A stretch of 30,607 nucleotides of DNA from a virus, in IMG/VR virus record IMGVR_UViG_3300025646_009126, positions 1-30,607 of that record; one strand, 5' to 3'. The notes under the pieces were generated by a model. That model ran no database searches. It had not been told where the DNA came from and saw only the letters and a program-made list of their open reading frames with translations. The translations under genes were made by a program, and so were the position numbers. Position 1 is the first letter of the stretch. Each line of letters begins with the position of its first letter. Of the stretch, positions 4,700 to 14,847 are shown one piece after another.

Positions 4700-4807
4700 A
4701 TGGGAATTCCAGAATTGTTTGATACCAAGTTGCAGCAAGAAAAATTTGCAGAAATGGTAGCCGAAAAAGTAATCGAAAAACTACTTGAAGAGAAAGAAAA
4801 TAAATAA
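4700..4807 (+). CDS. 35-aa micro-ORF translationally coupled to katG
   Basis: The product begins MGIPELFDTKLQQ and continues as one charged amphipathic helix rich in K and E. AGG precedes the ATG. The TAA stop overlaps the katG ATG by one base (TAATG). katG has no ribosome binding site other than the A-rich AGAGAAAG run inside this ORF, so ribosomes finishing here probably reinitiate on katG. It could be a leader peptide or a small partner. The coding call rests on position and overlap only. Confidence 0.6.
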   Translation: MGIPELFDTKLQQEKFAEMVAEKVIEKLLEEKENK

Positions 4808-7008
4808 TGACTGAAGAAGCAAAGTGTCCAGTTGATCATGTTTCATCTGTTGCAGATACAAAACCAATGAATTCTGCAGGAACCTCAAATAATGATTGGT
4901 GGCCAGAAGTAACCTCCCTGGAACCGCTACTACACAACTCTCCAAAGAGTAATCCAATGGATACCTCATTTAACTATGCAAGGGAATTCTCTACGTTAGA
5001 TTTAGATGAAGTTAAGAAAGATATTGTTGATGTAATGAAGGACTCCCAGCCATGGTGGCCCGCAGATTTTGGTCACTATGGACCATTCTTTATCCGCATG
5101 GCATGGCACTCTGCAGGAACTTACCGAGTGCAGGATGGCCGAGGCGGTGGCGGAGAAGGCTTGCAGCGTTTCGCACCGCTAAACTCTTGGCCAGATAACG
5201 TAAATCTTGACAAAGCTCGTCGCCTATTGTGGCCAGTTAAGAAGAAATATGGGCGTAAACTTTCCTGGGCAGACTTGATGATTCTTGCAGGTAATGTTGC
5301 CCTTGAAGACATGGGCTTTAAAACTTGGGGGTTTGCGGGAGGCCGAGAAGATGTTTGGGAGCCAGACAACACCTACTGGGGCACGGAAACTGAGTGGCTA
5401 GCAAGCAAGAGATACCATGAGTCTAGAGAAGCTGACACCCTAGAAGACCCACTGGCTGCTGTACAAATGGGGCTTATATACGTAAACCCAGAAGGCCCAG
5501 ATGGCAACCCAGACTTTAAGGCATCTGCTGCTGATATTCGAACTACATTTGCTCGCATGGCAATGAATGATGAAGAGACTGTAGCTCTAATTGCTGGTGG
5601 CCACGCCTTCGGCAAAACTCACGGTGCTGGTGATGCTGCACAGGTCGGTCCAGAGCCAGAGGCCGTTCAGGATCCAGCGGCTGTCGGACTTGGATGGGCA
5701 AACTCCCAGGGCAAGGGGCACTCAGAAGATACGATCTCTTCTGGTCTTGAGGTAACCTGGACCCCGAATCCAATTAAATGGGATAATGACTACCTGAGAC
5801 TTATTTATAAGTATCAGTGGATGAAGTCTGAAAGCCCCGCAGGAGCAGTGCAATGGGAACCACTAGATTGTGATGAAGAAGATATGGCACCACATGCTCA
5901 CCTTCCAGGTGTTCTTGTAAAGCCAAAGATGCTTACCACAGATCTAGCACTGAGATTTGGAGACGATGAATACGACAAGATTTGTAAAAAGTTTTTAGAG
6001 GACTTTGATTATTTTTCTGAGACTTTTGCAAAAGCATGGTTTAAGCTAACCCATAGAGACATGGGCCCTACGTCTAGATATTACGGTAGCGATGTTCCAA
6101 CCACTATCCTAGATTGGCAAGAGCAAATTCCAAAATCAGAGTCACCAATGTTTTTGTCTTCTGAGGATGCCGAAACAATCACAGAACTTATTATTAACTC
6201 TAAGACTCCAATGCATGACTTTATCAAGGCTGCCTGGGCCTCTGCATCCACCTATCGAAAAACAGATAAAAGAGGTGGTGCAAATGGCGGTAGAATATTG
6301 CTAGAGCCATATTCTGGATGGGCCGTAAACGAGCCAGAAGTTCTGGGAAACACCCTAAATTCTCTAAATGAAATTCGTGTAGCTTCAGGTTCAGAAATTT
6401 CTATGTCAGATTTAATTGTTTTTGCAGGCAAGGTAGCAATTGATCAGTCATTCAGCAAGGCTGGAATAAAGACATCAGTTAGATATGTTGGTGGTCGTGG
6501 TCAATTATCTCAGGAAAAAATTGACCAGTCATCTGCCAACCACCTGAGGCCAATTGCAGATGGCTTTAGGAATTGGGTTGACGAAGGGGCTGAAGGCAAA
6601 AAGCCTGAGAATTTGCTAATTGAGAAGGCAGCACTTCTAGGACTTACGCCACCCGAAATGACTGCCCTAGTTGGAGGCATGAGGGCACTAGGTGCGTCTG
6701 TGGGCAAGCCAAGCTCCCTAGTGTCAGATCATTCACAATTTTCAAATGAATTTTTTGTTAATCTGTTAGATATGAATATATCGTGGAAACCAGTAGAGGG
6801 GTCAACAGACCAGTATGCTGGACACGACAGAGAGACTGGCGAACAAAAATTTACAGCCACTAGGGTTGATTTAATTTTTGCATCTCACTCAGTTCTTCGA
6901 GCATTGGCAGAAGTTTACGCCTCAGACGATGGCCTTGAAAAGCTGGCCAGTGACTTTGCAATTGCCTGGAACAAAGTAATGATGCTAGATAGATTTGATA
7001 TAGCCTAA
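4807..7008 (+). CDS. katG: Catalase-peroxidase KatG
   Basis: A bifunctional haem catalase/peroxidase that removes H2O2. At 733 aa it is full length for the two-domain family. The active N-terminal domain has the distal triad R97, W100, H101 (RMAWHSAGTYR) and proximal haem ligand H266 (GGHAFGKTHGAG). The KatG-specific Met-Tyr-Trp crosslink residues are M251 (RMAMND), Y225 (GLIYVNPEGP) and W100. The SPAGAVQWEP and HRDMGP segments match bacterial KatG. The haem-less C-terminal domain is complete, with no frameshift. The start overlaps the micro-ORF stop. Downstream is a perfect inverted repeat across the stop, then tRNA-Thr. KatG is a bacterial housekeeping enzyme and is very unusual in a phage-like context; acquisition from the host is likely. 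Confidence 0.97.
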   Translation: MTEEAKCPVDHVSSVADTKPMNSAGTSNNDWWPEVTSLEPLLHNSPKSNPMDTSFNYAREFSTLDLDEVKKDIVDVMKDSQPWWPADFGHYGPFFIRMAWHSAGTYRVQDGRGGGGEGLQRFAPLNSWPDNVNLDKARRLLWPVKKKYGRKLSWADLMILAGNVALEDMGFKTWGFAGGREDVWEPDNTYWGTETEWLASKRYHESREADTLEDPLAAVQMGLIYVNPEGPDGNPDFKASAADIRTTFARMAMNDEETVALIAGGHAFGKTHGAGDAAQVGPEPEAVQDPAAVGLGWANSQGKGHSEDTISSGLEVTWTPNPIKWDNDYLRLIYKYQWMKSESPAGAVQWEPLDCDEEDMAPHAHLPGVLVKPKMLTTDLALRFGDDEYDKICKKFLEDFDYFSETFAKAWFKLTHRDMGPTSRYYGSDVPTTILDWQEQIPKSESPMFLSSEDAETITELIINSKTPMHDFIKAAWASASTYRKTDKRGGANGGRILLEPYSGWAVNEPEVLGNTLNSLNEIRVASGSEISMSDLIVFAGKVAIDQSFSKAGIKTSVRYVGGRGQLSQEKIDQSSANHLRPIADGFRNWVDEGAEGKKPENLLIEKAALLGLTPPEMTALVGGMRALGASVGKPSSLVSDHSQFSNEFFVNLLDMNISWKPVEGSTDQYAGHDRETGEQKFTATRVDLIFASHSVLRALAEVYASDDGLEKLASDFAIAWNKVMMLDRFDIA

Positions 7009-13783: not shown

Positions 13784-13796
13784 TTAAATTAAAAAG

Positions 13797-13827
13797 TAGC
13801 CCTGGTTATTGCTAGGGCTATTTTTTT
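13797..13827 (+). terminator. Intrinsic terminator after the holin-like gene
   Basis: TAGCCCT (13797-13803) pairs with AGGGCTA (13814-13820) around a 10-nt loop, followed by seven T residues. It ends the 7.1-13.8 kb transcription block. The hsp20 promoter's -35 and spacer lie on the loop, 3' arm and T-run. Confidence 0.88.
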
Positions 13828-13837
13828 ATGCTATAAT
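13809..13837 (+). promoter_or_regulatory. hsp20 promoter TTGCTA-N17-TATAAT, overlapping the terminator
   Basis: TTGCTA at 13809-13814, a 17-nt spacer that includes the terminator T-run, and a perfect TATAAT at 13832-13837. Transcription would begin at about 13844, inside the CIRCE operator. Confidence 0.8.
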
Positions 13838-13841
13838 ATTT

Positions 13842-13868
13842 TTAGCACTCGCCTAATGGGAGTGTTAA
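13842..13868 (+). promoter_or_regulatory. CIRCE operator (HrcA-binding inverted repeat)
   Basis: TTAGCACTC (13842-13850), a 9-nt spacer, and GAGTGTTAA (13860-13868). The consensus CIRCE is TTAGCACTC-N9-GAGTGCTAA, so 17 of 18 arm positions match and the spacing is exact. It starts 5 bp after the -10 box and covers the predicted start site, the classic repression position. HrcA releases CIRCE on protein misfolding or heat. No hrcA is seen in this window, so a host HrcA would be the regulator (inference). Confidence 0.92.
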
Positions 13869-13897
13869 CTAACTCGCTTAATAAAGGAGATGATAAT

Positions 13898-14290
13898 ATG
13901 ATGGTATCTTACCTAGATCCATTTGCACAACTTAGTCGGGAATTCGACAAGTTTTTTGGTGCACCAATGCAGAAAACAAATTACCCACCATATAACGTAA
14001 AGAAGGTAAACGATGACCACTTTACTATGGAGTTTGCTGTTGCAGGCTTCAGTCGTGGTGAGCTAGATGTGTCTGTAGAGCGTGGGATTCTTACCGTAAC
14101 TGGAGAGAAGCTCGGCCAGGAAGAAGAGTATATCTACAAGGGAATTGCTACTCGTAAATTTACTCGCTCATTCTCATTGCCAGAATACTTTGAGATTACT
14201 GACGCATCAACATTTGATGGTATCTTATACATTGATCTTCACCGCAATATGCCAGAAGACATGAAGCCTAAGAAAATAGAAATTAGGTAG
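13898..14290 (+). CDS. Hsp20 / alpha-crystallin-type small heat-shock protein
   Basis: A 130-aa ATP-independent chaperone. After a short N-terminal arm (YLDPFAQLSREFDKFFG), the alpha-crystallin domain spans about residues 28-125. It contains FTMEFAVAGFSRGELDVSV, GILTVTGEK, RKFTRSFSLPEYFEI and the closing DGILYIDL strand. The C-terminal I-x-I anchor reads KKIEIR. The start follows AAAGGAGA by 7 nt; ATG 13901 is an alternative. It is controlled by its own promoter with a CIRCE operator, so it would respond to host heat-shock status. Hsp20 genes are known in marine phages, but host-type CIRCE control is unusual. Confidence 0.95.
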   Translation: MMVSYLDPFAQLSREFDKFFGAPMQKTNYPPYNVKKVNDDHFTMEFAVAGFSRGELDVSVERGILTVTGEKLGQEEEYIYKGIATRKFTRSFSLPEYFEITDASTFDGILYIDLHRNMPEDMKPKKIEIR

Positions 14291-14298: not shown

Positions 14299-14304
14299 TA
14301 AATA

Positions 14305-14398
14305 GTCCCCCACACACGGGCAAGGGGTGCCTGCCTTAGGATGGATTAGTTACCCATTTGACTGGGCTACGCCAAGGTTCCTGTGTGGGGGCATTTTT
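14305..14398 (+). ncRNA. Candidate structured small RNA, about 90 nt
   Basis: A closed structure can be drawn by hand. The outer stem P1 is CCCCCACACA (14307-14316) with TGTGTGGGGG (14382-14391), 10 pairs. An inner hairpin CGGGCA-AGGGG-TGCCTG follows P1. A second arm has CCTT/AAGG, TAG/CTA and CCCA/TGGG stems capped by TTTGAC. A T-rich run (CATTTTTAT) follows P1, as in a terminator, and a TATAAT precedes it at 14293. Together this looks like promoter, RNA and terminator. It fits neither tRNA, SRP RNA nor 6S RNA. Its 3' half overlaps the 3' end of the minus-strand gene, so antisense action or a bidirectional terminator are alternatives. Confidence 0.5.
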
Positions 14399-14847
14399 AT
14401 TGATGCTGTTATAAATTTATTTTCAGATTCTAGCAGCACACTAACGTCTGAGCAATCCTTTGTGTCCCAAATGCTTGCAGATAAAGCTGAAATTTCATAC
14501 CTGTCTTCTTTTAAACAAATTGTTTCATCATTTATTAGGGGAATTACGCAATAATAATCTGAGTCATGGTACTCTAGGTCAAGATGATCTCTATAAATCA
14601 CATCAAACCCCTCTACAGAAACCTCATCAGCCCCAATCTGAAGATATGTAGAAATATTTTTTGATAATCTTTTTTTTAGTTCTTCAACTACCATTCCCAA
14701 CGGAGAGTTGGGACCGTAAGCCCCACTAATCTTAAAAACTTTTTCATCATCATCGGCCTTTTTGTTTTCATACAAGTACAATCCTTGCTCTGAGCCAGCC
14801 ATGAATGATGAAATCGTAATTAGATTATTATCTTTATTAATTTGCAT
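14350..14847 (-). CDS. Hypothetical protein, 165 aa, leaderless minus-strand gene
   Basis: Start ATG 14847 (MQINKDNNLITISSF) lies 6 nt after a minus-strand TATAAT (14859-14854), so the mRNA should begin at the ATG; the upstream in-frame ATG 14865 would be untranscribed. The protein is acidic, alpha/beta in pattern, with no known motif (GLYLYENKKADDDEKVF, YGPNSPLGMVVEELKKR). Its last ~14 codons run through the 3' half of the candidate RNA on the other strand. Not recognised. Confidence 0.7.
   Translation of the reverse strand: MQINKDNNLITISSFMAGSEQGLYLYENKKADDDEKVFKISGAYGPNSPLGMVVEELKKRLSKNISTYLQIGADEVSVEGFDVIYRDHLDLEYHDSDYYCVIPLINDETICLKEDRYEISALSASIWDTKDCSDVSVLLESENKFITASIKMPPHRNLGVAQSNG

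Follow-up and report, generated by a model that had tools for sequence, protein, structure and literature searches.

A phage hsp20 leader in which a candidate CIRCE-like HrcA operator lies within a predicted ROSE-like RNA thermometer

We analyzed a 30,607-nucleotide stretch of viral DNA (IMG/VR record IMGVR_UViG_3300025646_009126, positions 1 to 30,607; hereafter the window) that encodes the small heat-shock protein Hsp20. The leader of this gene carries a candidate operator for the repressor HrcA, of the type known as controlling inverted repeat of chaperone expression (CIRCE), followed by a hairpin resembling RNA thermometers of the repression of heat-shock gene expression (ROSE) type. The locus is arranged as follows:

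13791–13826, + strand: terminator-like hairpin with a T-run that closes the upstream unit, identified by folding; a terminator is found here in some, not all, relatives
13829–13837, + strand: extended −10 promoter TGC-TATAAT (TGCTATAAT), identified from sequence and from its presence in related leaders
13842–13868, + strand: candidate CIRCE-like HrcA operator, doubling as the stem of hairpin I in the RNA, identified by pattern match, folds and covariance model R1
13873–13889, + strand: RNA hairpin II, CTC-G-CTT/AATA/AAG-GAG, identified by folding, with a ROSE-type UCGCU motif pairing the Shine-Dalgarno sequence
13898–14290, + strand: hsp20 gene of 130 amino acids, start at 13898 or 13901 (PF00011, 67 bits; phrog_432 Hsp20)

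Both profile matches uphold the assignment of the gene as Hsp20 in a preliminary description of this DNA. The start that fits the Shine-Dalgarno sequence, 13898, lies 30 nt beyond CIRCE and replaces the start at 13856 in the program-made list of open reading frames. The operator itself, TTAGCACTC-N9-GAGTGTTAA (in full, TTAGCACTCGCCTAATGGGAGTGTTAA), matches the CIRCE rule TTAGCACTC-N9-GAGTGCTAA at 17 of 18 arm bases with the 9-bp spacer intact, and its one arm mismatch still gives a G-U pair in the RNA. As expected for a CIRCE operator, which sits at a chaperone gene promoter or immediately past it, this one begins 4 nt past the TATAAT hexamer (13832–13837) and precedes hsp20, and in every CIRCE-bearing phage checked this distance is 3–4 nt. 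The repeat and its position are exactly as the preliminary description had them, and the site is the sole one in the 30.6-kb record; with a chance expectation of 0.02 sites per window at up to three mismatches and recurrence in three stem types, an accidental match is ruled out.

The preliminary description had further placed the operator over a terminator and proposed that a −35 element in the terminator loop couples read-through to initiation. The terminator ends at 13826 and CIRCE starts at 13842, so the two do not overlap. The putative −35 element, TTGCTA (13809–13814), straddles the loop and 3′ arm of the terminator and is weak (4/6 matches), and this position is not conserved among 54 related actinophage leaders (1–6 of 6 matches, mostly 2–4). 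All 54 carry an extended −10 element, TGNTATAAT or TGNTATACT, in which TGN precedes TATAAT or a hexamer one base different. The variable −35 and invariant extended −10 together identify an extended −10 promoter and lend no support to the proposed coupling.

Folding of the leader RNA places the operator in a second context. Hairpin I reads TTAGCACTC-[G]-CC-TAAT-GG-GAGTGTTAA, with a bulged G at 13851, inner pairs 13852–13853/13858–13859 and a TAAT loop, so that the CIRCE arms form the outer stem and the 9-bp spacer is resolved into bulged G, inner pairs and loop. In hairpin II, CUCGCUU pairs with the Shine-Dalgarno sequence AAGGAG and leaves G13876 bulged in both minimum-energy and centroid folds, which gives the window the U(U/C)GCU–Shine-Dalgarno hairpin and bulged G characteristic of ROSE-like elements, alongside hairpin I and an Hsp20 gene downstream. 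The fold of the whole stretch has a z score of −5.5 against shuffled sequences, to which the upstream terminator contributes. Deleting the bulge in hairpin II lowers the predicted opening of the Shine-Dalgarno sequence to below 0.01.

Phage hsp20 genes are very common, with matches in 508 phage records, and 54 viral hsp20 loci were retrieved by Hsp20 protein similarity. At the position of CIRCE, relatives carry a hairpin with a covarying, variable stem, a bulged G on the 5′ side, one to four inner pairs (often CC/GG) and a loop mostly of 4–6 nt, and a second element, CUCGCUU-loop-AAGGAG or a UCGCU variant, lies over the Shine-Dalgarno sequence. The bulged base of the best single-bulge hairpin I is G in 114 of 118 non-redundant viral leaders, compared with about one in five in shuffled sequences. 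Since MAFFT alignment of the mixed leaders misplaces stems, a script was used to parse them with some pairs held out: selection of hairpins relied only on the core and two outer pairs, after which the next four pairs (3–6) were scored. These held-out positions are paired in 65–89% of cases versus 36–41% in shuffled sequences, with all six standard pair types represented. Covariation in alignment A2 is likewise high (0.78; shuffling gives 0.19 and sliding no more than 0.17); the held-out test is the fairer of the two because A2 rows were picked by hairpin. A covariance model, R1, built from 28 leaders with no CIRCE member among them, matches the window at 13845–13900 (48 bits, E = 2e-11) as well as all three further leaders with CIRCE that were tested (L026, L084 and L056).

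Of 12 named phage genomes checked, 11 have the same layout, with cyanobacterial, SAR11, Methylophilales and rhizobial hosts: Pelagibacter phage HTVC115P, Methylophilales phage Melnitz-3, the jumbo phages Atu_ph07 and Phosso, and the cyanophages S-T4, P-TIM68, S-B05, S-RIM4, S-H9-2, S-CREM1 and S-SCSM1; it is absent from S-TIM54. This two-hairpin leader is also found ahead of other phage genes (in L227, L159, L202 and L187), whose translations, judged by eye, resemble DnaK, a peroxiredoxin, a rubredoxin and a phasin-like protein.

CIRCE is distributed quite differently. Only two of the 54 similarity-retrieved loci have it (L026 and L052, both 18/18), and all others match at no more than 11 of 18 positions, an all-or-none pattern with no half-decayed copies. 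The preliminary description had named retention of hsp20 with loss of the repeat as evidence against its proposal, and this is the state of 52 of the 54 relatives. CIRCE is therefore rejected as a conserved control of phage hsp20, and the RNA leader takes that place: this conserved leader, ROSE-like and built of two hairpins, occurs with or without CIRCE, which lies within its hairpin I where present. Where exact CIRCE and hairpin II are found together, the spacer is of three types, all with the bulged-G core:

GCCTAATGG: window and L084
GTCTAATGA: L026 and L052
TGCTTCGGG: L056, L065, L082, L087, L106 and others

Among 191 other CIRCE spacers, just 4 have the bulged-G core. At least three actinophage lineages, that of the window included, have CIRCE as the hairpin I stem, and on the Hsp20 tree the CIRCE state requires at least five changes, three of them forced by well-supported branches. 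The sister of the window, L001, encodes an Hsp20 that is 89% identical and has an ordinary hairpin without CIRCE. The CIRCE leader of L084 is near-identical to that of the window although the two Hsp20 proteins are only 35% identical, suggesting exchange of the leader as a module between phages. As judged from these comparisons, CIRCE is an add-on and not the core control, and the conserved element is the RNA leader. Elsewhere, the viral contig L079 carries three perfect CIRCE repeats at 49-bp spacing (5424–5548), and no Hsp20, GroES, GroEL, DnaK or DnaJ was found near by.

The window encodes WhiB, an actinobacterial protein family, as do 22 of 27 related contigs; all five contigs lacking it are shorter than 12 kb. 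The window proteins examined did not include an HrcA, which is present in 386 of 395 genomes of the Actinomycetes, the likely host class. The preliminary reading of the repeat as an HrcA operator is thus sustained by a CIRCE at the promoter, by at least three actinophage stem and spacer types and by a host class that has HrcA, and it falls short in having overlooked the RNA leader. CIRCE with at most one mismatch is present in 18 of 23 small actinobacterial genomes (1.0–1.5 Mb), and 17 of 18 such loci lie 5 nt past a −10-like hexamer and ahead of groES/groEL. Most of these host sites have GAGTGATAA as right arm, against GAGTGTTAA in the window, and thus depart from the rule at the same arm position. 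In several 1.3–1.5 Mb actinobacteria, including G054, G073, G091 and G106, HrcA scores only E ~1e-20 to 1e-25, compared with ~1e-55 in other Actinomycetes, and these genomes still carry CIRCE at groEL.

We rejected a bacterial hsp20 as the source from which leader and CIRCE were copied: the GTDB contig collection does not contain the tandem, and R1 has no match in the 23 small genomes in a scan run without a positive control. Hsp20 was not found in 21 of these 23 genomes by a search that matched 12 of 14 control genomes, and the phage may supply a chaperone that its streamlined actinobacterial host lacks.

We propose that the window carries a composite hsp20 leader, with an HrcA operator on the DNA and a ROSE-like thermometer on the RNA, and put the probability of this reading at about two in three. 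It builds on the sequences, their architecture, covariation and phylogenetic distribution, and the occurrence of HrcA in the likely host class, all of which were established directly. HrcA represses at CIRCE and requires GroEL for activity, misfolded protein relieves this repression, and ROSE-like hairpins open with heat. Host HrcA would accordingly be expected to bind CIRCE at the transcription start and block the extended −10 promoter. Occupation of GroEL by misfolded protein, from heat or from heavy phage protein synthesis, would inactivate HrcA and let transcription start. The transcript would begin with hairpin I, built of CIRCE bases around the bulged-G core, and continue into hairpin II, whose UCGCU motif would mask the Shine-Dalgarno sequence and, as folding models predict, release it at higher temperature. 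The output would be transcription upon protein-folding stress and translation upon warmth, a dual control from which the phage could benefit. Several times in actinophages, CIRCE would have been superimposed on the hairpin I stem, which is unconstrained in sequence, with the RNA leader as the widely shared part. The broader proposal, in which a single 27-bp sequence serves as host HrcA operator in DNA and as hairpin I of a ROSE-like thermometer in RNA, gates hsp20 by folding state and temperature, and belongs to an undescribed family of ROSE-like leaders on hsp20 of phages from several bacterial phyla, appears to us slightly better than an even bet. If the shared leader is such a thermometer, phage RNA thermometers are common and not three isolated examples; if the CIRCE version works as proposed, a phage has adopted the misfolding sensor of its host.

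Several observations weigh against this proposal. The predicted unpaired fraction of the Shine-Dalgarno sequence rises only modestly, from 0.02 at 25 °C to 0.10 at 45 °C, and predicted thermal opening is flat in two other CIRCE leaders. The window aligns over its full length with Rfam ROSE_3 at just 15.7 bits, below the cut-off of 43, so formal membership in RF02523 is rejected and we describe the window as having a short ROSE-like layout; R1 likewise does not match the Pseudomonas-type ROSE leader. CIRCE is missing from most related phages that keep hsp20. Finally, the large leader set was retrieved in part with leader and CIRCE patterns that presuppose these features, a bias that spares only the 54 similarity-retrieved loci and the 12 named phages.

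The absence of CIRCE from nearly all relatives with hairpin I, the freely varying stem sequence and the arm mismatch that keeps its RNA pair would all suit a role in RNA alone, in which hairpin I is a 5′-terminal stabilizing hairpin and its likeness to CIRCE reflects coincidence or RNA convergence with no part for HrcA. We consider this unlikely, as CIRCE stems all reach 9 bp or more (making up 6 of 11 such stems) compared with the usual 4–8 bp of the family, and a given 9-bp arm would arise by chance at ~4e-6 per stem and yet is found in at least three lineages, each time 3–4 nt past the −10 element. The converse, that CIRCE and HrcA form a real switch and the RNA hairpins form without regulating translation, draws on the perfect fit of CIRCE to the promoter and the modest predicted melting of hairpin II; it is somewhat less likely again, given that the bulged-G two-hairpin leader covaries strongly and is conserved over phages of very different hosts, mostly without CIRCE. 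A CIRCE module gained by recombination and now neutral in this host would be in keeping with the leader shared by the window and L084 despite their divergent Hsp20 proteins, as though the module moves between phages, and with sister phages that manage without it. Against such a relic, which we regard as very improbable, the arms are intact (17–18 of 18) in all carriers, with no half-decayed copies among relatives. The composite leader remains our preferred explanation.

One further feature lies downstream of hsp20:

14303–14400, + strand: structured RNA element, candidate small RNA gene, with a covarying outer stem and a T-run at its end

This element of ~100 nt has a core TTAGGATG(G)ATTAGTTACC preceded by a −10-like box, and its outer stem is CCCCCACACA/TGTGTGGGGG in the window and TCCCCATACAG/CTGTATGGGGA in L001. 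All 17 occurrences in the retrieved loci lie 38–52 nt after hsp20, and the element matches no Rfam family. In L010, L012, L029, L037 and L039 its place is taken by a compact motif resembling a pseudoknot (in one example, ACTC-CTGGGGCAT-GAGT followed by TGCCCC). The window also encodes a full catalase-peroxidase gene, katG (4807–7008), with relatives 51–55% identical in the genome collection and full-length copies 50–58% identical in the sampled small actinobacterial genomes; host assignment by katG was rejected, its genome relatives being mostly 50–59% identical.

A literature search of open-license papers returned no report of a phage ROSE leader and no paper describing a phage CIRCE, in line with the preliminary description, whose author knew of no CIRCE-controlled phage hsp20; nor was any description of the regulation of phage hsp20 genes found there. 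A 2024 paper counts just three phage RNA thermometers, those of lambda cIII, SP-beta blyA and a gut-phage sigma-70 gene (PMC11182007). Like the predicted element of the window, these are temperature-sensitive leaders of phage genes; the two later ones are fourU elements, and none is ROSE-like, on hsp20 or joined to a transcriptional operator (PMC11182007). The closest RNA counterpart is the validated short two-hairpin ROSE-like thermometer of Pseudomonas ibpA (PMC3669281; ROSE_3, RF02523), which shares hairpin II, the U(U/C)GCU–Shine-Dalgarno pairing and the bulged G; the window differs in that its hairpin I holds an HrcA operator, its thermal response is a prediction and its Rfam score is below the cut-off. 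The cyanophage S-SCSM1 leader scores 24.8 bits against ROSE_3, and OQ572409, an unverified record labeled 'Pseudomonas phage Y7' that is perhaps host DNA, has an ibpA-type leader of 69.2 bits with the same bulged-G core in hairpin I (GGGAT-G-CC...GG-GTTCC) and CTTGCTG...CAGGAG in hairpin II. On the DNA side, CIRCE on a bacterial hsp20 has a precedent in Lactobacillus acidophilus hsp16 (PMC3179173), and this site and bacterial groES/groEL operators share with the window the arms, the 9-bp spacer, the position at the start site and a chaperone gene downstream. Unlike these bacterial operators, the window site is in a phage, its spacer is constrained as the bulged-G core of a hairpin, and a hairpin that hides the Shine-Dalgarno sequence follows it.
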